From the NCBI GenBank assembly GCA_946699065.1, contig CAMPDV010001544.1, forward strand, positions 1 to 64,000: a stretch of DNA of 64,000 nt. Direction: 5' to 3'. This stretch comes from Loxodes magnus. Lineage: Eukaryota > Ciliophora > Karyorelictea > Loxodida > Loxodidae. The translations under genes were made by a program, and so were the position numbers. Positions 21,426 to 42,770 of the stretch are shown here, piece by piece (within the stretch, counting starts at the first letter, position 1; every line of letters starts with the position of its first letter). The notes under the pieces are model-generated. The model made no database searches. It was not told the DNA's origin and saw only the letters and a program-made list of their open reading frames with translations.

Positions 21426-21709
21426 TGAGCAAGTATAGAGGAAGAAACTAAGCAGGAGTTAAGAAGGTAGGAAGGATTCTAATTAATATATAATGCATTA
21501 AATTTTAGAGATCATCGAAGTGCTTAGATCTTTAGAGTGGAACTGATTATAAGAGAATTTACTAACAAAACTCTATTAAAATGCTTAGCTTAAAAAGGTT
21601 TATAGTGCGTTTAGCAAATTTGATTTCAGATTGAGAATTTCGAGCTTTTGAAATTTTTATGAAACATGTATTTTTTAATTATTTTGCGATATTTTTTGTT
21701 GTTTCGAGG

Positions 21710-21861
21710 ATCTAGTCAGAACCACTTTTTCCAATAGCGTCATCGAAACCTCCTGCTGGGAAAAGTGCGTTAATCATCTTCCTAGATTGGGTTGGAGTCT
21801 CGTTTGTTGGAGCAAACGAGTAGAATCTCCTATAGAAGTGATCCTGTACGAGTACAGTCTT
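21710..21861 (-). ncRNA. U3 small nucleolar RNA, copy 2
   Basis: Identical over all 152 nt to copy 1 (see there for boxes and hairpins), lying 3.4 kb away in the same orientation. The sequence after the 3' terminal CTGACTAGAT is different from that of copy 1, which fixes the 3' boundary of the repeated unit. Confidence 0.88.
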
Positions 21862-21917
21862 ACTCTTTTCTCTCCTTACTCCTTTTATTCTATTATCTCT
21901 TTATTTCATTAAGGTTT
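21862..21917 (-). promoter_or_regulatory. Conserved upstream element of U3 copy 2
   Basis: The same 56 bp as upstream of copy 1, with unrelated sequence beyond. Probable U3 promoter. Confidence 0.65.
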
Positions 21918-22080
21918 CTAACTGAGTTTTATAAGCATCTTATTTAATTTAAATTTAGAGCTTTGGAAAATTTAAAATTTACATTATATGGATTAATCAA
22001 TTTTAAATGAGTGCGGCTACAAATAAATAGATTTTCGCTTATTTTAGTGAAAACTTAAGTGAGAAAAAATCAGGTTAAAC

Positions 22081-24159
22081 TTTAAGTTTATTTACTTAAA
22101 TTGAGTAAAGGACTTAGAGCTAAACTAAATTATTAATATTTCTCTATTTATGTAATTAATCTCAGTACATCATAGTTGATGATTAATATATAAATCCTTT
22201 CAGTTGTTTCATTAATCAACATCCTATAGCGATCTTTTAATATAAGGCTTTTGTACTTTCTTCTATTTTTTAGGTCTTAATCAAGAAACTATAATAGCTA
22301 GGTTTATGCTCCAAAAAATGTAATTTACCATGTAGCCTTATTAGCTTAATAAATCAAAGATTTTTAGTATAACAATTTTAGCTGAAAAATCTAGAAGTTA
22401 AGTTATTTTTATCTTTCCTTAATTCTTTAGTTCTATGTTTTATGAAAAGTTACTAGAGCTTAATTATTCGGTTTATATGCTTTGAGATTGAGTATGTAAA
22501 TATATACCGGAGTTGCATTTTAGACTTACTATTTAGATGCTTATCGAGCACTTCTTCCCTTTATTTTAGCTATTGTTTAAGTTAAGACGGAAGTATAACT
22601 TTTTAATTATCTTTCTAAACTAAAACTCTTTATAAATATCTTACCTTTCTAATCCATAATTTGATTATTATTAAGCATGTTCATTTAAAACAAATATCCT
22701 TATATTTACATCAAGATACTTAAGCTAAAATTTTCCCTTAGTTAGTCAAAGAATAGCTAGCTTAAACTCTAAGCCTTTTTATAAAATAAATTTACAAAGG
22801 CTCTTACTGAAAAAAGTGGTTAAGATAAATAATTAAATGAATAATATAATCAAAAGCATAGGAAGCAATAAGTATCATTATTAGTTAACTTAGACTACAT
22901 TATCTTTTCTAAGCTTTAATTATCGTATTAATGAAATTTTCTAACTTAAATTTAGGTTTAAACTAGCCTATTACTATTTAAGTGATAAGCCTATTTTATA
23001 ACTCTTATATAACCAATCCAAAAATGACTATTTAACTCTGAAGCTTTTTATAAATAAGCTACGAAAATAATTATTTAATAAGCTAAGAGTCATAAAAATC
23101 TATTGCTTTACATATCTCAAATATTTATACTTCGTCAAGAATATCTAAGTTTGTATCTTTCCAAGTAAACCTAATTACTTATCCTCTATCTTAAGCTTTT
23201 CTTTCCTTTGTTTTTATTAATTTTATGGAAGCATATTAATGGAATAAATTGAAAATGGAATTAAAATATTTTTTATAATCTGATTTAACTTAAAAAGTGC
23301 TGGCTTTTTATTTTAGTGAAGTGTAATAAACTTTATACCTTAAAATTTTTAAAGCTAGAGTTTGATTTTTAAATTGTTATTCCTTATATATTTTAGTTTT
23401 CTATCTCTTTTTGCAACTTTCTACCCCATCTCAAGTCTAAACTTCTCTAAGATATTTATATAAACTTATCCTCTAAAGCCATACATTAAGTTCATTTCTC
23501 TATCAGTTTAAAGCTATATAAGTGTTAAATATAAATTTATGTTTTTAACTTTTAAGAGTGAAAACTTTAACTTAATACCCTTTTGAAATTCTCTCTATCT
23601 ATTCTATTGAATCTGATTGTCTGTATTATTGCTTTATCTACATTTGAGCTACATCTATTTTAACTAATGTAATAAGATGCTACTTTCAGATTATGAAAAT
23701 TCCCTTGCATTGATATAATAATTGGTTCAATTTTTCTGATTTTCGTTTAGAGGTATTTTTTCACTCTTCGCTTAATCTATTTTAGATATTTTATTATATA
23801 TCTTGACTCAATCTTATTATAATGCTTGTAATGGAGATTTAGATAGAATATTATTTCAAATCGGGCCTTAATTTATAGTTTAAATCATATGGTTAATAGT
23901 CTATATAATGGTTATATTTTTAAGGTTCCATGTCATCAAGTGAAAACCCTTATGTTTTACTTTATCAAAATGAAGTAATAAACCTCTTACAACTGGACTA
24001 TAATAAAACAAACTTTAATTACTCTTTCAATTCAATTTTCCTTGAATTGCTTTGATCTATAAATGATTCTCTTAGTAGCTCTATTCTAAAATTAATTTCT
24101 TATTAAAACATCCAAAAAGTTCTAAGGTAAACCAAAAAATATTGATCGCTCTTAATTTA
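22081..24159. other. AT-rich spacer with weak inverted similarity to 49.2-50.7 kb
   Basis: No gene was assigned. Short stretches match the right side in inverted orientation, such as 22973-23060 with 49775-49860 and the 'gagcact'/'gtgctcg' region near 22545 with about 50280. The duplication is therefore older or wider than its well-conserved core. Confidence 0.5.
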
Positions 24160-27100
24160 TTAGTGTTAATTCCTTCATCGTTCAGTCTTTATTATATTTA
24201 ATTAGTCTCTATTTCTTAATATAATGTTAATGATTAACGTTCTTATTTATCTTCTTTCTCATAACTTGCTTAATATTATAAGCTATTGATCTTCTAATTT
24301 CTCTTAAAATAATAACTTCCAGCATTTTTGAAATTATGGGCTCTAGTCTGTTTCTGATGTTTATTATTTATCATATCCCTCTTTAAAAAATCCATTATGT
24401 TTAGGATAATTTATTATCCTGAGCTCAATTTTTCTTTATATTTATAACTTATTTTGCTTCTTAGCCATGCTTATAAAAATTCTTCATGAGCTTCCATCCA
24501 TCCTGCCGCTTTCTATTATCCGAATTGAAATATTTAATAGCATATCTTTTGATTGGAACTGATATACTTACTATTATAATTTGCTTCTCATAAATCTTAT
24601 ATCAATTTTGACTTAGCTTTCCTAATGCTTTTATTAAATGCATTATATCATTTCGAAAGTTTCATTTATTTAATTTTATTGTTTCCAAGTTTAGATTTAC
24701 TAATTTGCAGGGTAATCAAATATTATAAAAGGGTTAACTAATAATGATTACTCACTTTCTGACTGCTTTCTCTATAATTTACAAGCCACCAAGTTATTAA
24801 AGCAAGCTTTATTCAATTGACTATTCTTTGAGTAAGCAAAAAAATTTAAATTTCTACTAAAGCCAAGAATCCCATCTCTGAAATCCTTAATTTAGAGTTA
24901 TTTTCTAGTTTGATCAACTTGAAGTAGAATATTGGAAAATAATGTTGTAGGCAATTTTTTATAATTTGTATATTCTTTTTCATTATCAATTTTATACTAA
25001 CGCATTTTATACAATGATTGGATATTTTAAGTAAAGAAAAAAGATAATATTTTGCAAATAGCTTATGTCTTATGATTTATATGAGACTGTTATATTTTAA
25101 AATAGTTTACTTAGTATTCTTTATTTTTTTCTTAGATATCATGCTTCTATATTTTAATTCATTGATTTGGTCTTTATAAACTTGACTTTATAAGCTAAAA
25201 GCAAACTTTCGTTAAAGCTCTTATATCTTCTTATTATATCCTCTCTTGATACTCTTTTCTTTTCTATTCCATTCCTGAATTACCTTTAACTACTTTTAGA
25301 AATTAACTTTCTCTTATCTTCTGTTTTATCTATATAATAAGGAGAGATAATTATACTTCTAAGAATAAGATTTTACATTCTTACATTTTATAGTGATCAA
25401 CTGATCTCATTAACACTTATCAATATTTCTTAAAAGCAAAACTATTTAAATATGACTACCAAGATTTTCTATTATCTTCTTTAAGCTTTATTATTTGCTA
25501 ATTTCATGCTTTATCTTATGTCTACTTAAGCCTTTCTTTAGTTATGCCTGTTATACTTTAAACAATTTCTTTCGATGTTTGATGCTTAAATTTTTAATCC
25601 AGTATCTCCGATTTCTTATGGATAAAATATATCTCTTATAGCTTTTTGTGTATGCAATGAAAAATATAAAATAAGATGTGAAGCATATTTTGAAAATATC
25701 TTTAGCTTCCTAATTAGCTAGAAGCTGAGTATGTATTATGAAAAATAGCTTTAGGGAAGTTAATTTTAGATTAAATTAATATAGTTAATAGTTGGTCAGT
25801 CTGCTTCTTTCTTGTCTTAAATTCTCTTATATGCTAAATCATGTATAGTAGGATCATACAAGCAATAATATTTTATAAGCTTTAAATGTATAGTCTATTA
25901 ATACTGTATCATCACTTTCAATTCCAAAGGAAATTTCCCTACTAAATTATAGCGATTTAAGTCATAATCAAATACTAAAATTAAATCCCCTTTATTCATT
26001 CCACTTGGCATCTCTAAAGCTTCTAATAACTAATTCAAGCAGAACTGTTGCTAGGAGTTAGCAGTAACTTGGAAATTCTAGTATATCTCACATAGAGTAA
26101 CTTAATGATTTCTCTATATAAGGTTAACGTTAATAGCCTTATAATTTTACATTATAATCATAAAAATAACTATTATAGGTAATTTAATTATAGCTTCAAG
26201 AAATCCTTGCATAACACTATAGAAGCCGCTCATCATTTCAGAAGTAAAATCCATTAACTTTGATCTATTAACTTTAGAATACTTAAATAGAAAGTAAGCA
26301 GGGGTATGAAGCTATTTTCCGATAGAAAGCCTTCATTAAATTAATTATTTTGGAAATCATATAAATATCGGTTTTATACCGAATAAAGGAGGAAAATTAT
26401 AGAGTTAAATAATTAAAAGAATTGATTAATAATAAAGGAGGCTGGAATCCTAAAGAAAAGCTTATTGACTATTACAGAAAAGACTAATCATATACTTTCT
26501 TTAATAAAGCCATTTAACTAATAAAAATATTTGATTTATGGGTTTACTAAAGTAGTTTCAGATAATAATTTGACTATGAAAAATCAATTGAGGAATGTCT
26601 TAATGAAAAGAGTTCATTGTTTAAAGGAGATTAAATTGCTTATTGTAATAAATTAGATTTATAGTTTATGCTTAAATTTTCAAGATTACAGTACTGTTGA
26701 TAAGCTTCCAGAACATATACACTGATATTCCTGGTATCAATTGATAAAAAATGTTAGCTGATTGCGTTTCTCGTTAGATGCAATAAAAAATGTAAGCATA
26801 TAATCCTTAAAATTTTTATTGGTAGAATGGAAATTTCAAGATTATAGTAGTTTTAAGTTGAAAAATTCAAATATTAGAAAAGTTAAATTCCTAGTAATAT
26901 CATTGAGGAAAAAATTAGAGGGTAGTAATCTCATCAATAAGAAAAATGAGAAAAGAGTGATTTTTAGCAATTAATAATTAAATAAGTATGTAAAATTAAG
27001 GATTCAGGTATTTAAATTAACTTTAGATATAATTAAAAGTGTGTGCTTTAATATTTTTAATGGGTAAATAGCTCGAAAATATTTTCTACTAATTTTATGA

Positions 27101-27420
27101 AAAATTTATTAAACAGAACCAATTGGCTGATTTAGTAATTAAAGTTCAAAATCGGTTTTTCCCATAATAAATCAAATCTCTTCCTTAATGATTCTTTAAT
27201 TTGCTTGCCAACGTCATAGACGAATATTGATATAGTATAGTTAAATATTTGAATAAATCCAGATGGTAATGCTAAGCCAGTTTTAAATTGACTATCTATA
27301 TTTAAGATATTAAAATCACTCTCAATCATAGAATCAAATTTGTTAACCTCTAATCTCTAAATATCTAATTTTAATAATTTAACTTATACTTGATATAATA
27401 GAAAGAGTATGCTATTTATT
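24160..27420 (-). pseudogene. Large membrane-protein gene remnant, unrecognised
   Basis: Coding-like peptide on the minus strand in several blocks. The first, near 27.4-27.1 kb, includes 'LEVNKFDSMIESDFNILNI' and 'KESLRKRFDLLWEKP'. A long block follows from about 26.33 to 25.6 kb with 'QLHTPAYFLFKYSKVNRSKL', 'MDFTSEMMSGFYSVMQGFLE', a membrane-like 'IIKLPIIVIFMIIMQN', then 'MPSGMNKGDLILVFDYDLN'. A further block near 24.6-24.3 kb includes 'FQSKDMLLNISIRIIESGRM'. The blocks lie in different frames, so the gene has indels or introns. It resembles large ciliate multi-pass membrane proteins in style, but I cannot name a family. A more decayed direct copy is at 45.0-48.6 kb. Confidence 0.4.
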
Positions 27421-27750
27421 AACTATCTTAATTCCTTAATTGTTTGGTTCTTAATTATCAATGATAGTTTCTTTATATATGGCTTTCTAAATATATTAGG
27501 CAATAAACTATTTATGAGTACATAACTATCTTAAAAGCTAAAAAGAAGTATTAAATCTAACAAACTAGCAATAGAATATAGTGCATAAAAGTACTTATTC
27601 GAATGTAATTTAAGCTTAATACCTAATAATATCTTAAATTAAGAGCTAAGAAGAGTTGATAGTCAACAAGTACTTATAGATCAATCTTAAATAATAAATC
27701 TAAAGGACTTTGCTGAATAAGCTTAATTACAGAAATGGCAGAAAATGCAA
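24160..27750 (+). repeat. Direct-repeat module, copy A (matches 45040-48600)
   Basis: Colinear, same-orientation similarity along about 3.5 kb, mostly weak with many indels. One block, 25695-26150, is about 98% identical to 46460-46915, far above its flanks. Confidence 0.75.
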
Positions 27751-28958
27751 AGCTCTAAAGAGCTAAAACTAATAATTTATAAATAAAAACTCAAACAAAA
27801 AAATAATAATATATACCTTTAGCATTAGTAACTACTATAAAAATAAATTTTCTAAATTAGATTAACTAAGAAGAACTATAAATTACACTTAAAATTATAA
27901 AAAAAGATATTCTTAAGCTTTTTTATAAATTAAGGTATTTATAGAGCAAATGTGAAATTAAAAATGATTAAGCAAGATTTATCCTTTTTATATAGTTGGT
28001 CTTAAAATAAAATACTTTTCGGTTTGGAAGTAACTAAATTTATAAAGTAGATAAAGGAAATAAATGATCTTAAAAAGAAAAGAACATTTTTTTAAGTAAT
28101 AGTATGAATAATTTCTGAGTCTAAAATCATGGAATATATGAATGAATGAATAAATGAATAAAGTTACTCTTATGTATCTTGAAAAGAAAATATATAAGAT
28201 GCAATCTCTTATATAAGATTATAAATTTATTTAAGTCAATTTCAATTATCTTTTATTAGAAAAATTTTTAGTTTTCAAGCTAGATTAAAAAATTTTCCAA
28301 GCATATTAAAATAATCTAAATGCTAGAAAACATATCTTAAATTTAGATATGGAATTTTAAGAAGCTTATGCAGTAATAAAAAACTTGGACAATAATAATT
28401 TTTTATTTACCTTTTTATATGCTTAAGACCAAATAACTTTCAATAGATACTTCTTAGGAATTTCTTCTTTAAAGATTATTTGTTGAGTGATCCACCAAAA
28501 TCTTTCTCGAATTGACACAAATTTTTTGCCTCCTTAAAAGAAGCAGAAATTTTGATTTATTTTTATTCTTAATGACTGAAAGACAGCAAATCTATTTTTT
28601 TGTTTTCTTTATTAGCTTAAAAATTTAACAAAAGACCATATATTCTTCGCTCTACTTTTATTTTGAAGGAAGCAGCTTATTTTTATGATTATGAAAAAAC
28701 TTTTCCTTTAGTTGCCATATAAAATTTTTTAATTCAAAATTATTTGGCAAAAGAGATAAAATTTGAGAAAATAAGCTTCTAAAATCCTAAAAATTTATTA
28801 AAAGTTTATCTTGAACCATTTTTAACTTTGAATGAAATTTGTTATTATAAAAAATGTTTTTACTTCTATTTACACTAAATAAGGTGAATACACATAAAAT
28901 ATGGATATATAAACTTTTTTATAATGATTAAACTAAGTTTAAAGTATTTATGAGAGTA
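27751..28958. other. AT-rich region downstream of the intact NACHT-WD40 gene
   Basis: No gene was recognised. Contains a short run of GAATGAATGAATAAATGAAT near 28140. Holds the 3' UTR of the NACHT-WD40 gene. Confidence 0.45.
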
Positions 28959-31900
28959 TCAAATTAGTCTCAAAGCTGCTTCATTTACCAACATAATATC
29001 TAATCCGGATAATTTTGTTTCTAAAAAGCTACATTCATGTATAACTAGACCTTATCTTCCAAAAATTTATTTCAACAATCCATTTGACTTCCAATTATCT
29101 TAAACAAATTCAAAATCTTCTCGTTCTTTATCTTAACTTAATCTCAAAACTTATGAGTCTCATACCTTTACTGTTTAATCTCAACTTCCTGATACTATTC
29201 ACTTATCAGATATCGCTACCGAAGAAACTGCATTTTGATGCCCTTTTAGTGTTTACTTTATTTATCCCGTTTACAAATCTCATATATTTACTGTTTTATC
29301 TCAACTTCCTGAAATTATTCAGTTGTCAGATATCGCTATTGAAAAAACTTTACTTTAATGCCCTTTTAGTGTTTACTTTATTTATCCCGTTTACAAGTCT
29401 CATACTTTTACTGTTTTATCTCAACTTCCTGAAATTATTCAGTTATTAAATATCGCCACCGAAGAAACTTCATTTTAATGTCCTTTAAGTGTTTATTTTA
29501 TTTATCCCGTTTACAAATCTCATATATTTACTGTTTTATCTCAACTTCCTGAAATTATTCAGTTATTAAATATCGCCACCGAAGAAACTTCCTTTTAATG
29601 TCCTTTTAGTGTTTATTTTATTTATCCCGTTTACAAGTCTCATACTTTTACTGTTTAATCATAACTTCCCGATACTATTCAGTTATTAAATATCGCCACC
29701 GAAGAAACTTCCTTTTAATGTCCTTTAAGTGTTTACTTTATTTATCCCGTTTACAAGTCTCATACCTTTACTGTTTAATCTTAACTTCCCGATACTATTC
29801 AGTTATCATATATCGCTACCGATGTAACTTCCATTTAATGTCCTTTAAGTGTTTATTTTATTTATCCCGTTTACAAGTCTCATACCTTTACTGTTTAATC
29901 TTAACTTCCTGATACTATTCAGTTATTAGATATTGCTACTGAAAAAACTTTACTTTAATGGCCTTCTTGAGTTTGCTTTATTTAACCTATATGCAAGTCT
30001 CATAACTTTACTGTTTTATCTTAACTTCCTGATACTATTCAGTTATTAGATATTGCAACCGCCAAAACTGCATTCTAATGTCCTTCTAGTGTATGTTTTA
30101 AATATCCTGTTTAAAAATCTCAGATCTTTACTGTTTAATCATAACTTCCAGATACTATTCACTTATCAGTTATCGTAACAGAAAAAACTGCACCTTGATG
30201 CCCTTCTAGTGTTTGTTTTATTTATCCCGTTTACAAATTTCATACTTTTAAAGTTTAATCTTAACTACCCGATACTATTTAATTATTAGATATCGCTACC
30301 GATTAAACTGCACTTAGATGCCCTTCTAGTGAATATTTTAATTATCCCGTTTACAAACCTCATACCTTTACTGTTGTATCAGCACTTCCCGATACTATTC
30401 ACTTATCCGATATAGCTACCGAATTAACTTCCTCTTGATGCTCTTGAAATGTTTTTTATGATTATCCAGTTTTCAAGTCTCATTTTTTTACTGTTTTATC
30501 AAGACTCCCCGATACTATTCATTTATCATATATCGCAACCGACAAAACTGCACTTAGATGCCCTTTTAGTGTTTATTTTATTTATCCTGTTTACAAGTCT
30601 CATACATTTATTGTTTTATCTCAACTTCCAGATACTATTCATTTATCAGATATCGCTACCGACTTAACTTAATTTTAATGCTGTTAAAGTGTTTTTTTTA
30701 TTTACCCAGTTTGCAAGTCTCATATCTTTACTGTTTCATCATCACTTCCCGATACTATTCACTTATCAGATATTGCTACCGATGTAACAAAATCTTAATG
30801 TCCTAACAAGGAAGGTTTTTGTCCGAATCTTGCTTCTAGCATGTTACAAAAATTGAAATTAACATTTCTTAGTCAAGCCTTATTTAAATTAATTTTTTCT
30901 AAATTAGATTCACTCAAATCACAAGAATCAATAATTGCATCACTTAAGTCCGCTTCTTTTATTTAAATTCCTTTTAAGTCTAATTTTATAAATTAATAAT
31001 TCATATAGTTTAAAAAGGTTATAGCATTAGCCGATGCTTATTCTATTTTATTTTCACCTTTAGAGAGTTCTACTATTCTTAGAAGATTCGTTTTAATTAT
31101 TTCGATATCAGCCATTTCTTTTACGAAATTTATTATTTCATAGTTATTTATAAAGTTAATTTAATTCATCCTGCTTTTCATTACATTTTCTATATTTACA
31201 TCTAGATTTTTAGTTCAGTTAATTATATTCTTAGCTATATAAAAATCCTAAATCGAAGGATGAATAAATTCTATTCTTTTTTCTTTATTCTCTTCTTTGA
31301 TCGTAATTAAGCATCCTTATTGATTCAGATCTTTAAGCAAATTTTTTATTCACTCAATTTCTTTTTTGGTTTCGGTTGTCATTAATACTTTTCCTTTCAT
31401 TAATGAATAAGCTGCTTCAGTTGAAATTTTTTCGAATTCTTCTTTTTCAGGCATCAAATCTGCATTTTTATATGATGCAAATTTGTCCAAATTTTTAGTA
31501 TACCAATTTTCGATAAAAGCTTCATAAAGCTTGAATTTATTTATTTTCTCTTTAGAATTTAAGAAGGATTTAAGTATATTTTTGTCCTGAATACAAATAT
31601 AAAGTATAAAAGGGTTATTTAATATTTCTAATAAGCCTGGAATAGAATAAATGCTTTTTTTTATTTCATCACTTGCTTTTGCTGGTTGTTATGATTCATT
31701 TTCAGCTTATTTTATAGTATAAGCATTTCCTATGTTAGTATTTTGACACATTAGATCTATATATTTTTCTATTTAGCTTTATGTAAAGGGTTTTATATAT
31801 AATTCTTATAATTATTGAATTTAAGCTTCTTATCCTATATAAGGAGCGAAGAATTTCTTGTAATCGTTTTATTTTAGTGCATAATTTATCCTGCACGTTA

Positions 31901-33983
31901 TGATATACTTTGCATAAGGATATTTAGATGCGAGATTGTTTGTTGATATTAAAGATAAGAACTGGCAAAGCTCATCATAAGCATCAAAAAGGAACAAAAT
32001 CTTTCTAAACTTTAGTTTTTCAGAATGCTAGATTTTGTATTTTTCTAATCCTTACTCTATTAGACTATTTTTAAACTGATCTATCTAAGGAAGATAGACA
32101 TATATTGGTAAGTATTCGTTCATTTTTGTTAAAAGATCATGTGCTAAAATTTTCAAGAAAAGTGTTTTTCCTGATCCCGATTCTCCTAAAAGTAAAATGC
32201 CAGTTTTCTCATTATCGTCTAAGATTTTGTAAATGCTTTCTTTGAGATCCTTTTATTATGCCGAATCCGGAGTATCATCACAAAACAAACTCACATATAC
32301 ATCTTTTTTCTGTGATATTTCTTTATCTAAATCTTTTGTCATTTATTTATAAGTTTTTTCATCAATTCCTGTTAGCGATTGTCAATTTTCCTACAAAGTC
32401 TTTAAATCTTATATCACCTATTCCGTTTCTATAAGATATGTTATTATAATCTACTTTTATTTAGAATTTTTCTCTAGTTCATTTATTTATTACTCAAAGA
32501 TCTTTTCTTTTAGTTATACGGCATAAGCTTACTACTTCTCATCAATCGTTAATTCTAGTAGCATTCTAAGCGCGTAAGATTTTATCTTCCATTCTTAATC
32601 TGAACATAGTTGTTCTAGAAAGCTATAAGCCTCATTTGTCAAATCAAGGTTCTAAGATTTTTTTATGATTTCCTTAAGCAAAAAGCAAGCTCTTAGTTTT
32701 GTCCTTTGTTAACTCTCAACAAAATCCTTAAATTTTTTAAATGTTTGTGATTAGAAATCTGACATCAGTTCCAAAAATTTAGCATCTAAAATATGAATCA
32801 AAACATGTAGTTTGTTTTTAGAAATATCAGCTAAATGTTTACATCCTCATTAAAAAAAATCCTTTATATTAACTAGCGCCTCAGGATTGATAGATCCTAT
32901 TCCAAATGATAAGCTAGCAATGAACTATGCTACTTATAGAACTTTCAGACCCATATCAAAATAATCAATTTTTCAATTATTCTATACCTTATCCAATATT
33001 ATAAGGCTCTATGAAAGAGCAAATTCTAGCTCAGGTCCTCCAATTCCATCGATTTTGACCAGATTTAAACCGTTTTAAATTTACTAAACAAGATCTTCTT
33101 TTGTTTTGCTGCTGATTAGTCGGCAATCCTTCTCTTAATTTATTAGTAAAATTTCAAGTAATTCAGGTAGATGCCTCACTAAACTCTCTTTTAATAATTG
33201 AGGCCAGCTTTCTGCTCTACTATCTGAAATAAGTTAAGTAATACTTCAAATGAGAATTTGAGGATCATTTATCTTTTTAAAATCTACCTTTTCAATACAT
33301 TTAATTCCTTACAGAATTAAAGATTTATCCATTTTTTCCAAGCCTTATTTTATATATTATATTCCTTGCCCATATTCTTATTATTATTAAGTGTCCGCAA
33401 TGCTCAAGTTTGATGAAGTATCTTGCCTTATTTATGAATCTTTAATTTTTATTTAGTTTTTACAGCAACAGGAACCTCCTCCCTTTAGTCCTAAGTTATA
33501 AAATAAAAAGGTGTTTGTATTGTTTAACACAACTAAATTCTTTTTTGAGGGTCAGATGTTTGTTTATACGGGCTTTCCAAACTACTAGATTTCTAGATAG
33601 TCTTAATAGTTCAGCTGTTTTGATTCCTTTTTAGCCAAGTTTAAGTTTGTCTTTATTTAATCAAAGAGATAGCCACTAGAAGAATTTTTAGAGCTCATGA
33701 ATATACTAAGTTGTATATATAAAAGCTCTTCTATGTTTGGCCTATTAATAAGGCAAATTTTATTCCTATGTACTGATCTTAAGCTTAATACTTTTTCAAA
33801 GCTACTTGAGTTTTTGTAATCATAGAGATAAATGCTTGTGCGTTTTTAAGCTAGCTCTCCCGAATACTTTGAAGTTGCCTCCATGTATTAATTTCTCCAA
33901 TCACAAGTACATTTTTGCTTTGTAGATACCATTTAGTTTTTTAAACGGTCTCCGATACAAAGGCATGAGCAGTCTGGTGACAT
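28959..33983 (-). CDS. Intact NACHT-pentapeptide-WD40 STAND NTPase (NLR-like)
   Basis: 1,674 codons open from ATG (complement 33981-33983) to TGA (complement 28959-28961). Residues 1-60 are Cys-rich ('MSPDCSCLCIGDR', 'CTCDW'). Residues about 150-165 include 'LGLKGGGSCCCKN'. An alpha-helical region follows to about 560. Walker A is 'LLLGESGSGKTLF' (about 597-610). Walker B is 'ILFLFDAYDEL', with its first Asp at about 667, followed by 'YAKYIITCRINYAL'. The NACHT tail has 'GLLEILNNPFILYICIQ' and 'FIHPSIQDFYIA'. Pentapeptide-like repeats (about 1005-1050, 'ADLSDAIIDSCDLSESNLEK') precede 14 WD repeats of 40 aa, enough for two seven-bladed propellers. The conserved tail ends 'AALRLI'. STAND proteins sense a ligand through the repeats and oligomerise through the NTPase; the ligand and effector domain here are unknown. 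About 40 Trp are TGA and 5 are TGG. All needed motifs are present. Confidence 0.93.
29150..30795 (-). repeat. Tandem WD40 array, 14 units of 120 bp
   Basis: Fourteen units with no length change. The frame is fixed ('IVSGS.D.TVKVWDLQTGQIKQTLKGH'), and variation is concentrated at the positions before 'WIVSGS', after 'SGS', and after 'GH'. Units near 29460-29700 are almost identical. All 32 or so Trp codons are TGA and none is TGG. One unit has TAA (Gln) where the others have TGA (Trp). Confidence 0.93.
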
Positions 33984-36433
33984 TTTTTTAATAAATAGAG
34001 TAAAGTAGAATTTAAATAGCTGAATAGAAAAATTTTAAAGTTAGCATTAATTCTAAGATAACTAAATAACTTTTAATTCAATCAACTCTGCTCATTAAGT
34101 ACTTTACCCTTAACTCTCTAACTTACCCTTTTATCTAATCCTTAAAAGCATTAAAGTGTAAAACTTGAATTTAAATCTATTTCTTTCTCTTTACTTAAAC
34201 TAATGCTTTCTATCTCAAGCTGTAAAAGTGAGAATATATAAAGTGGTGTAAATAGTAAAAATAAGGAATGTGTTAAATAGTAGACATAGTGTGTATAGTA
34301 GTTATAGAAACTATTACAACTATTAAATCATTTTTCAAATTCCTTTTTTAATACCTTCAGTCTGTTTTTGTTTGTTACTAGTTTATTTTATCAAGTTAAC
34401 TCAGGATTAAGCATTAGATACTTAATATAATAGTAGAAAATTATTTGATGTCTGCTAATTTGCTGTAAAGAAGTATTTTAGAAAAAATAAATTTAAAGAA
34501 AGTAAAGATAAAGAGAGGATAAGCTTAAGAGTCTTAACTAATAAAAGTATTTTAGAATAGAAAAGATTAGATTTTAATCTAGCAGCTATTATTTTAAAGG
34601 TTAGATACTTTAATTAATTTTTCTTAAAAAAGTAAATAATTTTAGTATTTAGCATAATAATCCTTTTAAGTTGCTAAGGATAAAAGAATTTAATACTTTA
34701 TCAATAAACTAAATAGAAACTTTAGAGACATGAATATGATTAAGTTATGTAATAAAGAATTAACTATTGTATAACTTATAATAAGAATTATCTTAATTTT
34801 GATACTTTTAGCAACTTAAAATAAACATTCTTAGAATTTAAATTTAACTAGTTTTATTTAGAACTTCGGAGTAAAAAATGCTATAGTGATAGATAAAATA
34901 ATAGAAAGTCCAATTTAGAATTGATTTTAGAATCTTGATTGATAATAAATAGAATATAGATGCATGATTCCAATGTATTATTTAGAAAGCTAGTAGTTTA
35001 TTTAAAGCAGGATTATATTATTTAAATTAATTGAATAGTAAAATTATATGATTATAGCTGATTTTATTCTTTTATCTTTTTCCTTTCTGTTTGAATAGAC
35101 AATTTACCTTATATCTTTTTATTAAAATAATCTAAAAAAGCTGTAGATTTAACTTGATAAACTTATTCGATTTTACTTATTAAAATAGATGAAAGGATAA
35201 TTAAAAAATGAGGTTGAAATAAGCTTAAGAAGCAGATAGATATAGTTCTGTATTTAGATAGCTGATAACTAGAAGTTAGTTAGTTAAAGTGATATAAATA
35301 AATGATAGCTAGAAATAATAATTAGTTTAAAGTAACTTAGATAATTAAATACTTATATAGGATATTTCTAATAGCTACTTTATTTAATTAACTACTCATA
35401 ACTAATAGCTATTCCTTATTATTTAGATGTCTCTAATATAGTTCTAAGAATATAACTAAATTATGAGAAAAATCTAGAAATTCTTTAGAAATAATAGCTT
35501 GCTAATGCTAAATTTTTAGTTAAGATGATATTATTATTTTATAGCATATTACAGTCATTTAGTTAACACTTAATTTGATGCTTTTTATTTAAAAGAGAAT
35601 CATACATTTAATACAAGATTTTGATGAATAATAAACATGATTAGCAACATTCTATTTTTCTATGAGACTTTCATTATTTAATAACTCTAGAAATATTCTA
35701 AAAAGATATATCATTCAAGTATTTGGAATACTCTTAAACTTATTTATAAGCAACTATCTTTATATTCCTCTTAGTCTTATTATCCTATAAAGCTTATTTA
35801 ATACACTTTTATATTTCTAATTATTATATTTAGTGTTCTGAAGTATTGCTTATGTTTTAGCTTAATAATATAAAAGAATGAAATTGTATAGGCACTTCTA
35901 TAATAAACTAAATAGTTAAATATAACTAAATAGCAGCCTAAATAGTTAACACTTTAATAGCATCATAGTTATAATCTTATTACCTAATTTAAACTATTAA
36001 CACTAAATAGCTATAACTAATAAAATATTAGTAACCTTAAATTAACTTAATAGACAAACTTAAACTCAAAATTAAATAGTCAAACCTTAGTTTAACATTT
36101 CTCTACTTTAGAACAAATCAGTCTTAAGCTTCAAATTGCTTCTCATTTTTAATTTATGCAGTCCTTTATTGCTTCCATAATTATAATATGTTAACTGCCC
36201 ATAAATTAAACAAGCCAATCTTGCCTTTCTAGCAGCTAAAAGCCTGTTGCAAGCCCCAATCATCAGTCAAAATAAGGAGCAAATTGCTCTATGCTTGGTT
36301 ATAATAATAATTAGTTTAACCTGGAAGTTTAGAAAAGAATAATAAGATTTAGAGATATTAACTATATGATAAATACTATCTAATTTATCCTAGCTTCAAA
36401 ACAATCCTCTTGAGTTAGTGCCTTGCTTTTATA
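33984..36433. other. Upstream region of the intact NACHT-WD40 gene
   Basis: AT-rich. 34340-34860 is similar to 16930-17460 upstream of the left NACHT copy, showing that the upstream flank was duplicated too. The stretch 36200-36330 is less AT-rich and has protein-like codons on the + strand ('NLAFLAAKSLLQAPIISQ'), but it is too short to call. Confidence 0.45.
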
Positions 36434-36862
36434 ATGGAAGAATCTAATATTAGTGATGAGGGCTTAGCAATAAAATCTAATCAAACCAAAAAATAATTAC
36501 TATATGAAGGTTTTAAGAATCCTCTTCTTACAGAAAAGGACAAGAAGTTATTCAGAGAGTTAAAATATAGCTCAGAAGGCTTATTCTCAGCCCGCTGAAA
36601 TGGGATGAAAATAATATAGTAGATTAGAGAGGAATTATTTGATATTATAAATCTAAGGAACTTGCAAGAACATTTCAAAAATATCTATAAAGGAATGCTA
36701 ATAGGCACTCTGAGCTATGAAGCAAGACTCCATATAATAAATTCCAATATTAACACCTAAAAATAAAGAAATAATAGAAAAGTCACATATATTTAAAGCT
36801 AAAGGTACTTTAAGTAATTAATATCATTATGCAAGTAAGCAATTTACTAGCATAATAGCTGA
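36434..36862 (+). CDS. Hypothetical protein, ~142 aa
   Basis: The frame from ATG 36434 to TGA 36860 gives 'MEESNISDEGLAIKSNQTKK', 'LLYEGFKNPLLTEKDKKLFR', 'GLFSARWNGMKIIQQIREEL' and so on, with one internal TGA read as Trp. The first 110 residues look coding: mixed charge, few homopolymers. No family was recognised. The frame stays open past 36862 apart from scattered TGA codons, so the true end is uncertain. It may be a fragment of a decayed gene. Confidence 0.4.
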
Positions 36863-39639
36863 TAAATATTTACATTGTATAGTGTTTAACTTCAGCTCAA
36901 TTCTTTCTTTTTAAGTTACTAGGATTAAATTACTTATCTATAAAAAGATGCGAAAGGAGCTTATCTTAACATGCAATATAGAAGTAAAATACAAGAGAAA
37001 ATACCAGCTGACTGTAAGATATTTTAAAATTGGGATATAGACCTTCCATTCAATTGGACAAAGTAAAATATAAAAAGATGCTTAAGTATAAATTTATTTA
37101 TAAGCTTAAGGATAAGCATACAATATATGAGTATCATTTTTAAATGAGAGAGAAATAGCATTAGTATGTCTAATTTTTAAGTTACAGATAATGGAAAAGG
37201 GTTTATGAAAAGAAGCAAAAGCACTGTATAACTTTGCCAACTAAGTAAGTAATAGAAAATTTTAACTTTTGCAGTTTTTTTTAAATTTTTAAGATATTTC
37301 TCATATGATAAAGCTAGATAAATAAATAGGTATGATTCAAGCTTTTGTTTAGTAAAATAAAAAAGCTTAGCTAACTAAGAAAGATTTTGCATGATTGATA
37401 AAATTTTAGTTAGAACAAAAAAACTATAAAGGTGTATTAAGAAGGAAAGAGAGAATAGAGTTTGAATTGAAATAAATAGTATAATAAATATCTTAAATAT
37501 ATATAATAGGTATTTATAATGATTAGTACTCTAATTATTTAAAATATTAAGAGATAATAATTAGTTAAGTTGCTTAGAAGCAAATTTATCTAATAATAAA
37601 CTTAAGTTATTAAATTTAGTTATTAATTAAACAAAAAGGATTGCAAGTCTCTTATAATGACTAAATTAATAAAATAGTAAGCTATTTTATTATTATAGAG
37701 AAGGTTATTATAATTAATAGTTTAAAAGTATCTTAGTTTAGAACTTATAAATATCTTCTTAATATTACTTATAAAGCAAACATTATATAGAGATAATAAC
37801 AAGCATCTCAGTATATTAGTAAAAATAGTTGATCAGTAATAGTTTCTTAATAATTATATAAGCAAATATCATAGATTTCTTAAACAAAAGTGAGAGGATT
37901 AATAATAATTAAACTTAGATTACTAAAGTTGTGTTATAACTAATTATTATGTTAAATAGTGCTTTTACTTTATCTTTATTTAAATTTATTTATCCTTATT
38001 AGCTTCTACTTTTTATAAACATTAAATTAGCGAAACTTAATTTCATAGATTTAGAAATGCTAATTAAGACTGAAGCAGATGTATGTATGTTTATAATAAA
38101 TACTTGATTATAATTAGATGAGTAAGTAAACTATGAATACCATATTATTAATTTCTAAATAACACTAAATGTAGATAGTTTGTTGCATTAAAGCTTATTA
38201 ACTGTTTATTTACATTTTATTAATAAAATAAGTTTATCTCTTTATATTATTATTCTTTGTCTCTAATATCTAAATATACCTTTAATCTAAGAGTCTTATT
38301 TAGAACCTTTAAATTTATAAAAGCTAAAATAATTAGAAAGTTATCTAAAATAAAGTTATTAAATATAAAATATAAAAGTATTAGCTTTGTAAGAGTGTAT
38401 TCATTAATTTATCTATCAATTATTATTTAACCTAAATTTACTGTTTAATACAACTGCTATAAACATCCTATTGCTTGAATGATTTAAGAATTTTAGTATG
38501 CTAATTAATTATTAGACAGGCTATTATGTATAATAGACTCTTTATATTTATCAATAGTTATAAACTGCTTAATCTTATTATAATCATTTTGATTTTATTT
38601 AACTCTTATAACTTTAAATTTAATTATAAGCAAATAGATTAAAACCTCATAGTAGTCTCTAGTTATGATTATATTAGTAATGCTATATTAGTTTTTAACT
38701 ATTTCAATTATTTATCATTATAGTCAATGCTTTTATTATTTTAACTTTAGAAGTTTCGTATTTTAGGAAATTTAGTTTATCAAAAATAATTAACTGATGG
38801 TTAAGAATTAATTTAATAAAAAGCATATCCTTCTTTATGCTTTACTATTTAAATTAATGAAGAGACTAAAATACCCTTAATATAAGCTTATTTGATTTCT
38901 TTGTATATTATTTACATTAATTTCAAAAATTTGCTATTTTATCCTTTTATCATTCAAAGTTTTCTTAACTATTATAGATGAGTAGTTTACTCTTAAATAA
39001 AAGCTTATATTTGATTGTAGTTACTCTACTCTTAACACTTTTATTTAAATAAAGAGAAAATTATCAATATCACATATTTATTCTTAATCACTAACTGATT
39101 ATTTCAAACCTTTATTTAGTGTATTATCTATTACACTTCTAAAGCTTTAAACCTTCCAAATTATCAAATTTAACTTCCAAAAACCTAATTATTTTCCTAA
39201 AGCTTTTAAAATACTAAGCTTACATTTTTAAGCATTGTATGATAATTTTTTTAAAAGTGAAGTTTTAAAGACAAAAGATACTAGAAATTTAAATAATTTT
39301 AACTAAAATAAGATTAATAAACTTGATAATATAGCCTTCTCAATTAGCTTTGGATGATCTAGTTGTTAAAAAATAATTCTACTTCATTAGAAAATTGCTG
39401 TATAATAGTAACAGGCAAATTAAGTAAGCCTTCATTTGCAGAAACGATTCTATAATAATAGCATATTGCTCTTGCACTTAAACTCTCTATAATGTTTTAT
39501 TAATTGATATGTATATTAATATTCCTGAAATAAGACTTATTGACTGTTCATCTCACTGTTGCTGATTTTTCTAATTTTATAAATCATTCTATAAGAAATA
39601 TTTAACTATCTAAGCTTATAAAAGGTTATAGTAAAGTAA
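36863..39639. other. AT-rich region, nothing recognised
   Basis: No domain, RNA or tandem array was seen in 2.8 kb. Some short coding-like peptide continues from the preceding ORF to about 37.2 kb ('IPADCKIFQNWDIDLPFNW'), without a recognisable family. Confidence 0.4.
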
Positions 39640-40120
39640 TCAAAAATGCTTACATTTACGTAAAAATCTTTCTTCATTTAAGAATATTTGATGGACATTT
39701 TCCTTCTTGCTCTTCAATAGTTTTGAAATCCAAAGTTTGATTTTATGAATTAGAATTATATCAAAAACTAGAAATTATTAAGTATAAGGAATAAATATAG
39801 CAGAAGTAATTACTCCTACAGTCAGTAGGTTTTTACTTTAACTCTATGTGCTAGTTGTAACATCATATAACTATATTATATCACGATTGATATTTTAAAC
39901 TCCAAATATATCCAGCAAATATATATGCATGATAATCACATATTTCCACTTCAAAAACATCTACCGTCATCTTTTATTATTAGATACCTATAAATGTATT
40001 TAATTACATATCAAATACTTCACCTTCAGCTATGATTAGACCTTGTTCATTATAGTAGTATTTAGTAGCTCCAGAAAGTATAAATATTCAATATTTTTAA
40101 TAATGACAGTTCTATGTAAA
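39640..40120 (-). pseudogene. Decayed kelch paralogue
   Basis: Minus-strand peptide 'LSGATKYYYNEQGLIIAEGE' followed by 'VFDMQLNTFIGIQ' and 'CDYHAYIFAGYIW' aligns with the kelch protein at 1319-2278 ('VSGVTNRNSISIDVAECEIF', 'CDNVYVFGGFN'). Just upstream 'HRTVIIKN..YLY' matches 'HRTSFNKKHLIYI' but in another frame, so at least one indel separates them. The N-terminal part seen in the intact gene was not found. It is a relic of a duplicated kelch gene. Confidence 0.6.
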
Positions 40121-40199
40121 AATATTAGCTTCTATATTTGAAATCACATGCATTCATACAACAAAGAATAGTAAACTTTGTTGTCAGTTTATTATTTCT

Positions 40200-41330
40200 G
40201 CCAGATATAATAATTATTTCTTCTTATACTTACTCTACTTAAGTATAGTAGCTAAATTAGTATTTTATTCTTCAACTATCTAATTTTTAATATAGTAGGT
40301 AGTTAAACCATCTTAATCAGTTTTCAGAGTTTAAATCTATTTAAGTAACAATTTCATACCAAGTTAGGGTAAAATTCATATTTAACACTCCAATTCCCAA
40401 TTTTCCAAAAATACAAATACTACCTAAAATTTTTATTTTTCTCAGATATAGTATTTTAATAATAGCACTTAAAGGATTTTTTTACATACTATTACACAAT
40501 ATAACCACACTTTAAATGTATTGTTATGCTTCATTAAAAAAGTAAATTACCCTTTGCTGAAAAATTCAATAAAGCTAGCTTGATATAAACAGTAAATTGA
40601 TAACTGATCTATAAGAACTTAATGTTAAAATCATTGATGAGAAGCTCAGGCCATGAGTTTTGCAATAGATATAAAGTAAACATAATAAAGCTAAATAAAT
40701 ATTTATTTTAGTTAAATTAATTTTTAATTAACTTAGATAACTTTAAAATGTTTTATCATATAAATTGAAAAGCATTAGCTAAGTTCTTCAAAGTGGAATC
40801 AATTGTATAAAGATAGTAAATTAATAAAAGCTAAAATTGTAATAATTGAAAAACTTAGGAAAAATGCTTCTTTTATTACACTAAACTACCTAAGTCCATA
40901 AGAATAATTATCAAATCTATAGTATAAAATATTCACAATTTTCTTATATTACCTCACCAGTTTGTCACAGCTTTAAGAAAAAAAAATTTGCTGGCCAATC
41001 ATACTTTAAAATAAAGTCAAACTTATATAAAAATAGAGGACAAAATTACGAATATAAAGTATTGATTATATACGAAGTTATGAAAAAGCAAATACCTCAT
41101 TTTAAACTTTAAAGCTTAATAAACTTATAATATCAGATATGAAATTGAAAGAAGCATAGTATCAATCAATGCTAATAGTTTTTACTATCTTAATACATAA
41201 TTTATTAATTTAAATAGTAGCATAATCCCTATATTAACCCGTTATTTTTCTAAGCTTTTATTATTTTAAAATTTATTAGCTAAAGATTTAAAAATATGAA
41301 TAATAAGAAACTGAAAACTAATTATTATGT
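40200..41330 (+). repeat. Diverged direct repeat, copy B (matches 10710-11835)
   Basis: Same orientation and order as copy A, with many indels. The frame that is open in copy A is broken here. It lies directly beside the kelch relic. Confidence 0.75.
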
Positions 41331-42327
41331 TTATACTCTTAAAAAATTTATTTGCATTAGAACATACTTAATAAAAATATAGAAAATTTTAGATATGAGT
41401 TTGAGAATTTTAAGCTGAATCTTTGTGTGACTAGACAAACTTTTTTAATAGGTTTTAAGTGGTCTAATAAAATTTGATTATTCTAGCAAAATATTATTCC
41501 TTAAAACTATTAAAGTAGATCTTATAAATAAAATAAAATCCAAATTTTTTGTTTAGGCATTACAGAGTTTTTAGACTATACAGTTTAATATTATATAGAA
41601 TAAGGCTAAGAGATTTAAGGAAGACACTGTCATTTTTCATATTATAACTGCTTGTATAATAAAGATAAAATAAAATATTGCTATTGTAATAATTTATATC
41701 AAACTAAACTTAAATTTAGCAAGCACCTGATTTATAAGAGATTTGCTTATATCTCTTATACATCTTTATATGTAAAAGAATACCTTTTTAAATTTTAAGC
41801 CTATATGTTTATTTAGTTAAAATAGTAAAAAATATGCCTTTAAGAGATAATCCTAGATATATATGAAAAAAAGCTAAATAAGAGTAATAACCTTAAAATA
41901 GAGTTTTTTAATAAAATTATTAAAATTAGAAACAAAAATTTAATTTATTTTAAAGACTTCTTAGAACCAAACTCTAAATGGTTATTTTTTGAATATCTTT
42001 TTTAGTTTTTAATTTTAATTTCTTAGATATCTAACTCCCATTATTAAGCGAAAATATTAATATCTATTTTATAAATCAAATATCTAAAATTTTTGGTAAA
42101 TTTCACTAAACAAAATTAGATTATCAACTCAAATATTTACAAGATATATTCTAACCTGCTTTTGTATTTCTTCCTCTTTATTATAACAAATGATTACTTA
42201 GTTCTAAATTTAGTTAACTTTATAATCTTAAAATTGACTCTAACTATTTCATTTTATCTAGCATGATCTTATAATACTTATCTAAAATTGCTTAAATATA
42301 GTATTATTAAATTATTTCTTTAAAACC
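41331..42327. other. AT-rich region, nothing recognised
   Basis: About 1 kb without recognised coding or repeat content. Confidence 0.45.
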
Positions 42328-42465
42328 GCCATAGTTGTTCGAAGGTGAACTACAAGGTCATCTTCATCAGAGGTTGGGGAAGTTAAGTACCCATAATCGA
42401 CTTTATGTCTTCCTCTGCTTTGGTTTGGCCTCGAGACATAAGATTCTTAGACCTTCGACGTTGGC
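42328..42465 (+). ncRNA. Structured GC-richer element 1, possible non-coding RNA
   Basis: A GC-rich island in AT-rich surroundings. The ends pair (GCCA with TGGC, and TCGAAGGT at 42339 with ACCTTCGA at 42451). Inside, CAGAGG pairs with CCTCTG, GGG with CCC around AAGTTAAGTA, and GAC with GTC. The words GCCATA, AAGGTGAA and GAAGTTAAG occur in the same order as in 5S rRNA, but with about 11 extra nt between the first and last, and no clear 5S 3' half. It could be a 5S-derived element or an unrelated RNA. Strand is inferred only from that resemblance. Confidence 0.45.
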
Positions 42466-42520
42466 TTGACTTGGTTGCGTTTATTTTTAATACTGGAACT
42501 AAAAAGAAATAATATTGCGA

Positions 42521-42625: not shown

Positions 42626-42655
42626 AAGTATTAAAGATTACGAGTATTCTAAAAT

Positions 42656-42770
42656 TATATCAGTATTGAACATTTTTATCAGTACTGAATAATTATACCA
42701 GTATTGAACAAGGATTATCAGTATCTGATAATTTTATCAGTAACAAACATTCTTGTCAGTATGAAACATT
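42656..42770 (+). repeat. Short degenerate tandem repeat, ~19-bp units
   Basis: Six imperfect units of the type TATCAGTATTGAACATTTT in a row, with the core CAGTA regularly spaced. Placed between structured element 2 and the GC-rich hairpin. Confidence 0.7.

Follow-up and report, generated by a model that had tools for sequence, protein, structure and literature searches.

A candidate family of NLR-like NACHT–pentapeptide–WD40 receptors in Loxodes magnus, a ciliate

Gene B lies on the minus strand of the window (the whole 64,000-nucleotide stretch of Loxodes magnus DNA analysed here) at positions 28959–33983. It is read from 33983 to 28959 as 1,675 codons, corresponding to 1,674 residues and a terminal TGA stop. 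The frame is open only in a code where TAA and TAG specify Gln and TGA specifies Trp, the final TGA acting as stop, and this ciliate code is used throughout the gene. The final TGA excluded, Trp is encoded by 40 TGA and 5 TGG codons. Within the WD repeats, the conserved Trp is encoded by TGA at repeat position 17 in 13 of the 14 units and at position 30 in all 14. Plain table 6 (TGA as stop) and the Euplotes and Blepharisma codes (TAA and TAG as stops) are rejected, because the frame of B is not open under any of them. A Condylostoma-type code with three ambiguous stops is disfavoured relative to the karyorelict code, because TGA ends all three copies of the gene in the window (A, B, and C) and because the last 30 codons of B contain neither TGA nor TAA.

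The single frame of B encodes a tripartite architecture of the NLR type (N-terminal domain, NOD, and C-terminal repeats), all parts being on the minus strand. The N-terminal part is composed of a fast-evolving, Cys-containing segment (residues 1–165; 33489–33983), the motif GLKGGGSCCCKN, which has a counterpart in paralogues (residues 165–176; 33456–33491), and a family-wide, probably helical domain (residues 190–560; 32304–33416). It is followed by the Pfam NACHT match (residues 596–743; 31755–32198), which scores 33.6 bits against a curated cut-off of 26.7. Walker A (GESGSGKT, residues 600–607; 32163–32186) and an acidic Walker B-like motif (KILFLFDAYDEL, residues 661–672; 31968–32003) are both present, as in STAND NTPases of the NACHT clade, and KYIITCR (31890–31910) is located inside the same match. 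Further along, FIHPSIQDFYIA (residues 906–917; 31233–31268) presumably resembles a motif of NACHT proteins. Pentapeptide repeats (residues ~998–1057; 30813–30992; 31.1 bits against a cut-off of 20.2) link the NACHT module to the array of 14 WD40 repeats of 40 aa (residues 1059–1618; 29130–30809). The C-terminal tail (28959–29129), which ends in the TGA, has a counterpart in several paralogues. NB-ARC is not among the best 25 of the 35 Pfam families listed for the B core, and no NACHT protein is among the 18 sequence matches of the core to solved proteins. Pentapeptide proteins and two helicase loaders are included in those 18. The preliminary description had proposed a complete, NLR-like NACHT–pentapeptide–WD40 ciliate gene of 1,674 aa with 14 WD repeats; the frame and the Pfam matches, with WD40 in 14 stretches, bear this out.

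Comparison with A and C gives dN/dS values of 0.17–0.28 in the NACHT core, indicating at the codon level that the core is under purifying selection. The values are 0.38–0.39 over residues 1 to 1030–1070, and dN/dS between B and A is 1.09 in the 60 C-terminal codons. Between B and A, the net frame shift upstream of a 560-bp deletion in A is zero (a nucleotide-only alignment breaks one 12-nt difference into 2 + 10), and 21 of the 24 gaps upstream of the gene, end gaps counted, are not multiples of 3. The frame is kept in residues 1–165 with slight, nearly absent codon-position constraint, so the exact start of B is less sure.

The two relatives that had been described as broken are indeed broken. 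Copy A (12031–16378, minus strand, read from 16378 to 12031; 13 WD repeats) is open except for the 560 bp missing. The deletion removes residues ~511–697, including the P-loop, and breaks the frame at the junction. Copy C (56439–60374, plus strand) carries several small deletions and a shortened WD array. Aligned with A, it shows short gaps (eight of 1 nt, one of 2 nt) and two large ones in the array; past residue ~1150 the alignment of C is forced, and this part was left out. On contig C888, which is near-identical to the contig of the window (C1544), A is intact and B is truncated, so that each contig has one of the two genes intact, B on C1544 and A on C888. The number of WD repeats differs between C1544 and C888 (13 vs 14 in A; 14 vs 4 in B), with chimeric units. 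C888 could represent either a second haplotype or a segmentally duplicated copy.

The N-terminal region was said to contain no known domain. This is true of B, where residues 1–580 match zero Pfam families at E ≤ 5, with neither the HET domain of a subset of HNWD proteins nor the TROVE domain found, and it is less true of the family, in which weak HEAT signatures occur. When members are scanned one at a time, HEAT (PF02985) is found in 7 of 11 at E ≤ 1. It is above the cut-off only in L035 (24.1 bits vs 23.5), below it in L034, L036, L038, L039, L040, and L042, and absent in B, A, L031, and L037. A profile search of the PDB with one N-terminal alignment gives no match up to E 10; with another, of 11 rows, the best match is to a short stretch of the PP2A PR65 HEAT repeats (E 0.015). 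The AlphaFold2 model of the region from a three-row alignment has a mean pLDDT of 39.9, which is uninformative on disorder or novelty, because the NACHT core, a known fold, scores only 37.2 in the same set-up. In a PDB fold search, the predicted region has 0 matches at E ≤ 0.001 among 583 at E ≤ 10. Many of the top rows of that search are HEAT/ARM proteins or designed repeats. Residues ~190–560 of B correspond to a probably helical domain common to the Loxodes family, for which a role as helical scaffold or adaptor would fit as well as an effector role.

The Cys-containing start, also pointed out earlier, has a narrow distribution. Of the 73 places scored, only B, A, C, and the two C888 copies (5 in all) match this segment of approximately 160 residues from its first residue onwards, and the GLKGGGC motif is found more widely in the family than this segment. 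An intron joining the ATG to GG... at the GLKGGGC start was considered and dropped, because members differ in reading phase. In B, such an intron would also far exceed the length of Loxodes introns, for which the available text of the genome paper gives a mode of 17 bp (PMC11441545).

A gene family had been claimed from three copies, and a genome-wide search confirms a family that is far larger. The N-terminal query gives at least 73 matches scored among 765 candidates (all E ≤ 6.3e-68), and a short query gives at least 150 among 475 (all E ≤ 1.8e-18); the control gene, ribosomal L3, gives 2 matches. These are six-frame counts, lower bounds that include near-identical copies. By eye, three pairs among the 73 rows have equal bits, range, and stops. 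A high-copy group of near-identical members accounts for part of the total. Of 31 NACHT places found in the genome, 11 were left out of the architecture count, and the architecture of B is present in 6 of the 20 fetched. It is also present in 4 of 6 further members drawn from the 73; in the other two, L039 and L041, the ~5.3 kb covered contains no WD units. Scores with the NACHT profile (cut-off 26.7) are 36.1 in L034 and 28.5 in L037, both above the cut-off, and 23.7 in L042, below it. Eleven of the 14 prokaryotes used as controls also give matches in the PF05729 search, three of them above the cut-off.

A single frame runs through the N-terminal domain, the NACHT domain, and the WD array in 7 of the 14 members checked: B, L031, L034, L036, L037, L042, and the C888 version of A (a second list of the six besides B gives L043 in place of the last). 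Frame changes are present in the other seven (L029, L033, L035, L038, L039, L040, and L041). These may reflect short introns, assembly errors, or decay. GT..AG stretches of suitable length lie near 4 of 6 listed frame changes, and such stretches are common by chance. The frame changes, the broken copies A and C, the lack of WD units near L039 and L041, and the many near-identical matches are what would be expected of a decaying or amplifying multicopy family in which B is one intact survivor without present function. The low dN/dS of the NACHT core and the existence of seven single-frame members argue against such a history, which we consider very unlikely.

A recent transfer of a bacterial NACHT–WD40 gene is extremely improbable. 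Bacterial plasmids do encode NACHT proteins and WD arrays with high internal identity, but the NACHT cores of the plasmid matches listed (10 of 11) are only 22–29% identical to that of B. In addition, the N-terminal region of B is unmatched in plasmids and in viral and prokaryotic contigs, in scans that read reassigned stops poorly, and the ciliate code is used from one end of B to the other.

The pattern of similarity among repeats indicates that the Loxodes WD arrays evolve in concert. The nearest neighbour lies inside the same array for 24.7 of 27 WD repeats, a value reached in 0 of 2000 shuffles, and for 133.9 of 162 repeats over 11 arrays (lowest in L036, 7.5 of 14, and L037, 7.8 of 14). 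Fungal NLRs with internally conserved repeats have been delimited by identity above 85% over at least 100 aa, according to the passages available (PMC4986451). Repeats 10–12 of B exceed this threshold, with a mean identity of 90% over 120 aa, and the repeats of L029 are 95% identical over 18 units; the best identity in A is 80%, below the threshold.

Four sites in the WD unit were set beforehand from the codons reported to be under positive selection in Podospora HNWD, as given in the accessible part of the source (PMC1805685). By pairwise counting (not FEL), dN/dS at the four sites is greater than 1 in 11 of 11 arrays (1.05–11.9), compared with 0.25–0.63 elsewhere. The bootstrap interval is clearly above 1 in only three arrays, L029 (11.9; 6.0–18.1), L035 (1.99; 1.21–2.80), and B (1.76; 1.17–2.76), and reaches 1 or less in the other eight. 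L029 and L035 lie in frame-changed genes, so B is the only single-frame member clearly above 1, with L042 touching 1.00. The value for the broken copy A is 1.05. L033 (99% like L031), the array of copy C, and the first and last repeat of each array were left out, as were paralogue units without Val, Ile, or Leu at position 8 or Asp at 24/26. The units used were 12/14 in B, 11/13 in A, 18/20 in L029, 11/14 in L031, L034, and L042, 10/13 in L035, 12/14 in L036 and L037, 9/13 in L038, and 7/20 in L040. Among eight bacterial control arrays, three have intervals wholly above 1, including one of the three kinase-linked arrays, indicating that the signal marks recently amplified arrays and not NLRs alone.

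The latter result is consistent with B being a NACHT–WD40 scaffold or a stress or quality-control protein in the manner of TEP1 or NWD1, with neutral repeat turnover and relaxed exposed loops accounting for the variable sites. The HEAT-like N-terminal signatures of relatives and the eight Loxodes intervals that extend to 1 or less agree with this, and accelerated divergence is, in the text at hand, a general property of repeats (PMC5120217). However, relaxed constraint alone gives a dN/dS of 1 at most, which the values for L029, L035, and B exceed, and the number of genes is far above that of the single control gene. We regard a scaffold or quality-control protein as unlikely.

We favour, with somewhat better than even confidence, the reading of B as an intracellular sensor of the NLR-like (STAND/NACHT) type, belonging to a large receptor family of Loxodes magnus, most likely for the recognition of non-self, be it bacteria, viruses, or conspecific cells. 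The 14 repeats of B would form two 7-bladed propellers, the top face of which would bind a protein ligand. Ligand binding would release the NACHT switch and lead to oligomerisation, and the helical (HEAT-like) N-terminal domains, now clustered, would recruit a downstream response. Repeat shuffling, together with selection at contact positions, would renew specificity, as proposed for fungal HET-D and HET-E. On the predicted surface, the WD repeats change most at the positions that also change most in fungal recognition genes, a pattern suggestive of molecular recognition by a free-living single cell.

A use in allorecognition specifically, in which the receptors would detect conspecific cells as het-d and het-e do in Podospora, is rather improbable. 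The alternation of intact A and B on the two contigs would suit it, as would the four positions and the kind of repeat instability that the Loxodes arrays have in common with hnwd (PMC1805685, PMC2873952); pathogen sensing predicts an identical sequence pattern. Returning to the non-self sensor, a fuller version of it is tentative and in our judgement less probable than not: the ciliate would keep NLR-like receptors numbering at least in the dozens and perhaps in the hundreds, their helical N-terminal domain being specific to the lineage and their specificities being renewed by WD-repeat shuffling and diversifying selection, with alternative receptors intact on different haplotypes (A on one, B on the other). 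This would be innate recognition on a scale like that of plants or fungi.

Plants, some animals, and filamentous fungi are known to have large NLR repertoires. Those of fungi have been suggested, in the part of the source available, to accompany multicellularity (PMC4986451). A single-celled ciliate with a large NLR-like family that diversifies would, if the reading is true, test the link between NLRs and multicellularity and allow the recognition needs of a lone cell to be studied. The WD contact surface is a concrete target, with the same four positions varying in fungi, some bacteria, and Loxodes. No paper on ciliate NACHT or NLR genes is among the matches listed from the accessible text of open-licence PMC papers, and the main text of the Loxodes genome paper has no words starting with NACHT, WD40, or NLR.

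Several known systems share parts of this architecture. APAF-1 has two WD40 propellers (7 and 8 repeats) after its STAND NTPase, with an NB-ARC and a CARD N-terminus and, to our knowledge, without pentapeptide repeats; B differs in having a NACHT instead of an NB-ARC, plus pentapeptide repeats. TEP1 and NWD1 combine NACHT and WD40, with a TROVE domain before the NACHT in TEP1; B has no TROVE match, has a pentapeptide linker, and belongs to a large family. Bacterial STAND–WD40 proteins, such as the NB-ARC protein L001 of Acaryochloris and the NACHT protein L003 of Haliscomenobacter, resemble B in joining a STAND NTPase to near-identical WD arrays with a strong excess of change at the same four positions.

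The likeness to fungal HET-E/HNWD proteins that had been proposed holds for the NACHT, the WD40 array, and concerted evolution; it does not extend to the HET domain, and the site signal is clear in 3 of 11 arrays. Unlike Podospora HNWD, the Loxodes family has its own N-terminal domain, the ciliate code, no HET domain found, and a pentapeptide linker, which we know of in no HNWD protein. Like B, the NWD/HNWD proteins of Podospora anserina (HET-D, HET-E, and HET-R) combine NACHT and WD40 with internally conserved repeats that evolve in concert. The codons with excess change are 7, 9, 25, and 27 in Podospora HNWD and 7, 9, 23, and 25 in the 40-aa unit of B, and differences in repeat number with chimeric units are common to the Podospora and Loxodes arrays.

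Gene B lies at 33983–28959 on the minus strand of the window and comprises 1,674 codons followed by a terminal TGA. The frame is open if TAA and TAG are read as glutamine and TGA as tryptophan. TGA falls on both conserved tryptophan columns of the WD repeats (13 of the 14 repeats at one column and all 14 at the other), indicating that the reassignment is not arbitrary. Over 28959–33983, TGA encodes tryptophan 40 times and TGG five times, though TGA is also the stop codon of the gene. In PMC11441545, L. magnus is described as using code table 27 with UGA as both tryptophan and stop, UGA and UAA being scarce for about 20 codons ahead of the stop and the 3′ UTRs being short and AT-rich; the macronuclear assembly is given as 706 Mbp. 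The end of gene B fits the pattern described there: neither TGA nor TAA occurs within 30 codons ahead of the terminal TGA, and the G+C content of the 60 bases 3′ of it is 16.7%. We infer that the DNA of the window is macronuclear.

Pfam identifies NACHT (33.6 bits; cut-off 26.7), pentapeptide repeats (31.1 bits; cut-off 20.2) and 14 WD40 stretches in this open frame, in agreement with the preliminary description of a complete 1,674-residue NACHT–pentapeptide protein with 14 WD repeats. A sequence search of the PDB supports the WD array and the pentapeptides; no solved NACHT protein is among the matches to the core.

Gene B belongs to a genomic family that extends beyond the window, which holds B and its two broken relatives, copies A and C. 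Residues 1–600 of B, searched against the whole genome (an assembly of 705,730,643 bases in 7,843 contigs), yield 765 first-look candidates and at least 73 matches, all scored ones with E ≤ 6.3e-68, so the gene family claimed earlier exceeds three genes. A 113-residue query (residues ~499–611), covering the end of the N-terminal domain and the P-loop, yields 475 candidates and at least 150 matches, all scored ones with E ≤ 1.8e-18. Ribosomal protein L3, searched by the same method as a control, returns two matches, indicating no many-fold redundancy of the assembly at this gene. Some members are near-identical: by visual inspection, three pairs among the 73 scored matches agree in bits, range and stops, and a larger set is closely similar in score. 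A high-copy near-identical subfamily (L039, L041 and many scored matches of both queries) shares the N-terminal domain and P-loop. Among the 73 matches, only five start from residue 1, those at B, A and C plus a pair on C888, a second contig matching the window; the others start between residues 131–157 (a few) and 241.

The Pfam NACHT profile finds 31 places in the genome, all above cut-off; it also matches 11 of 14 control prokaryotes, three of them above cut-off. Twenty of the 31 places were taken for an architecture check. Six (L029, L031, L033, L034, L035 and L036) combine the same N-terminal domain with NACHT and 13–20 WD repeats; the other 14 lack WD units by the WD-repeat profile, among them L022, with NACHT and pentapeptides. 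L022, L025–L028, L030 and L032 form a second NACHT family, 39–51% alike in most pairs and 79% for L026/L030. Four of six further members from the 73 scored matches have 12–20 WD units; in L039 and L041, the ~5.3 kb retrieved contains no such units. The N-terminal domain, NACHT and array lie in one frame in B, L031, L034, L036, L037, L042 and L043. The frame changes somewhere in L029, L033, L035, L038 (a single WD unit), L039, L040 and L041, which may result from short introns, assembly errors or decay.

Residues 1–580 of B, searched alone in Pfam, match no family at E ≤ 5, and NCBIfam gives weak CcmM (0.012) and CpcF (0.045) matches on B. HEAT (PF02985) is found in seven of the 11 members of an N-terminal alignment (best E 3.4e-5); only this best match, in L035 at 24.1 bits, exceeds the curated cut-off (23.5), and the member-by-member scan finds none in B, A, L031 or L037. 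The best PDB match of the alignment profile is the HEAT protein PP2A PR65 (E 0.015), and a low-confidence predicted structure is all-helical. We tentatively regard the N-terminal domain as a HEAT-like helical module. The homology of the family starts at a GLKGGGC motif (33456–33491), which has a counterpart in paralogues and is preceded by unrelated sequence in several members. At a guess, the motif could be a lipid anchor.

Comparison between copies shows purifying selection on the NACHT core, with a dN/dS of 0.17 around the P-loop (B versus C) and 0.26–0.28 over residues 698–1070 (B versus relatives). The ratio is 0.38–0.40 for residues 196–510, 0.63 for 511–600, 0.57–0.58 for 1–195 and 1.09 for the C-terminal 60 codons. 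Between B and A, the net frame shift is zero until a 560-bp deletion; in the 1 kb upstream, 21 of 24 gaps are not multiples of three. Residues 1–165 keep the frame and change nearly equally at the three codon positions, indicating that this stretch is fast evolving and that, of all parts of B, the true start is placed with least certainty.

The two relatives are broken, as claimed earlier. Copy A (16378 to 12031, minus strand) has 13 repeats and is open apart from a missing stretch of 560 bp that includes the P-loop. Against A, copy C (plus strand, from 56439) shows nine small gaps (eight of 1 nt, one of 2 nt) and two large ones in the array (362 and 600 nt). Both are carried by an inverted duplication of 8.3 kb (14859–23142 versus 57956–49689; 94% identity). 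Each arm also holds two U3 snoRNA genes (18297–18448 and 21710–21861, minus strand; 50964–51115 and 54369–54520, plus strand; Rfam RF01848, 70.5 bits each), the listed pairs being 99.1–99.5% identical over ~212 bp. Self-comparison also reveals direct duplications (10712–11834/40203–41330 and 25298–27035/46059–47775). Neighbouring genes encode Kelch repeats (1106–2197, plus strand), a ubiquitin carboxyl-terminal hydrolase (2313–4097, plus strand) and an acyltransferase 3 (6200–8398, minus strand).

A second version of the locus lies on C888 (G000:C888:123400-149990; L043–L045), with A intact and B cut to four WD repeats; in the window, B is the intact one. Identity to the window is 99.5% (14859–19048), 99.15% (23670–27669), 94.2% (27670–29604), 92.6% (30359–31713), 96.3% (45317–51115) and 99.3% (54310–55882). 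The match skips from 31713 to 45317, indicating that the P-loop and N-terminal domain of B are lost on C888. A on C888 (L043) has one frame, NACHT and 14 repeats, versus 13 repeats and the 560-bp deletion in the window; gaps and ends aside, the two differ by 24 mismatches, 16 of them in 12000–12499 (WD array and tail). C scores 430.6 bits on both contigs. The two versions may be haplotypes or duplicates. By eye, two of the four repeats left of B are chimeric. Together with the unit differences of A and B, this resembles the gain and loss of hnwd units through fusion of neighbours described by Chevanne et al. (PMC2873952).

WD repeats are more alike within genes than between genes. For B and A, the nearest neighbour of a repeat lies in the same array in 24.7 of 27 cases, a value reached in 0 of 2000 label shuffles; across 11 arrays it does so in 133.9 of 162 (lowest, L036 with 7.5 of 14 and L037 with 7.8 of 14). 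Repeats 10–12 of B are 90% identical over 120 residues, versus 80% for the best three of A. Test positions were fixed in advance from Podospora, where PMC1805685 gives codons 7, 9, 25 and 27, flanking conserved 8 and 26; the equivalents in the 40-residue unit of B are 7, 9, 23 and 25. The dN/dS at these four positions against all-site dS (bootstrap interval in brackets) is 1.76 (1.17–2.76) for B, 1.05 (0.78–1.33) for A, 11.9 (6.0–18.1) for L029, 1.10 (0.75–1.48) for L031, 1.29 (0.81–1.66) for L034, 1.99 (1.21–2.80) for L035, 1.40 (0.97–1.83) for L036, 1.36 (0.94–1.70) for L037, 1.34 (0.80–2.15) for L038, 1.47 (0.90–2.28) for L040 and 1.38 (1.00–1.71) for L042. The ratio exceeds 1 in all 11 arrays, and in three of them the whole interval is clearly higher than 1 as well; at other repeat positions it is 0.25–0.63. 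Two of the three clear arrays, L029 and L035, belong to genes whose frame changes; the L029 array itself is in one frame, and that of L035 is not. In the first 19 of the 20 L029 repeats, amino acids vary at only seven of 42 columns, including all four predicted positions. L029 (G000:C108:80600-90500) is a gene with two frame changes and 20 near-identical 42-residue WD repeats that vary almost only at ligand-face positions.

The same test was applied to eight bacterial plasmid WD arrays, hand-picked among 40 listed of 261 records. The ratio is 10.8 (6.8–19.0) for an NB-ARC array, 4.2 (2.7–5.6) and 0.38 (0.25–0.68) for two NACHT arrays, 1.48 (0.91–2.13) for a WD40-only array, 0.92 (0.50–1.39), 0.94 (0.13–2.90) and 1.79 (1.20–2.68) for three kinase arrays and 0.94 (0.74–1.20) for a caspase array. 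The signal is present in one of three kinase arrays and absent from one of two NACHT arrays, indicating that it goes with recently amplified arrays and is no proof of an NLR. A general repeat study (PMC5120217), which reports accelerated divergence of repeats as a general feature, points in a similar direction.

Building on the observed architecture, family, repeat evolution and contig differences, we propose that the 14 repeats would form two propellers binding a ligand on the top face, that NACHT would act as a switch with oligomerisation, and that the N-terminal domains would thereby cluster. Among the open-licence PMC matches listed, there is no report of NACHT or NLR genes of ciliates. 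HNWD proteins carry a HET domain and TEP1 carries TROVE; residues 1–580 of B match neither in Pfam at E ≤ 5, so gene B is neither an HNWD gene nor TEP1. The likeness to fungal NWD genes lies in the sensor, and the overall plan resembles that of APAF-1-type STAND proteins.
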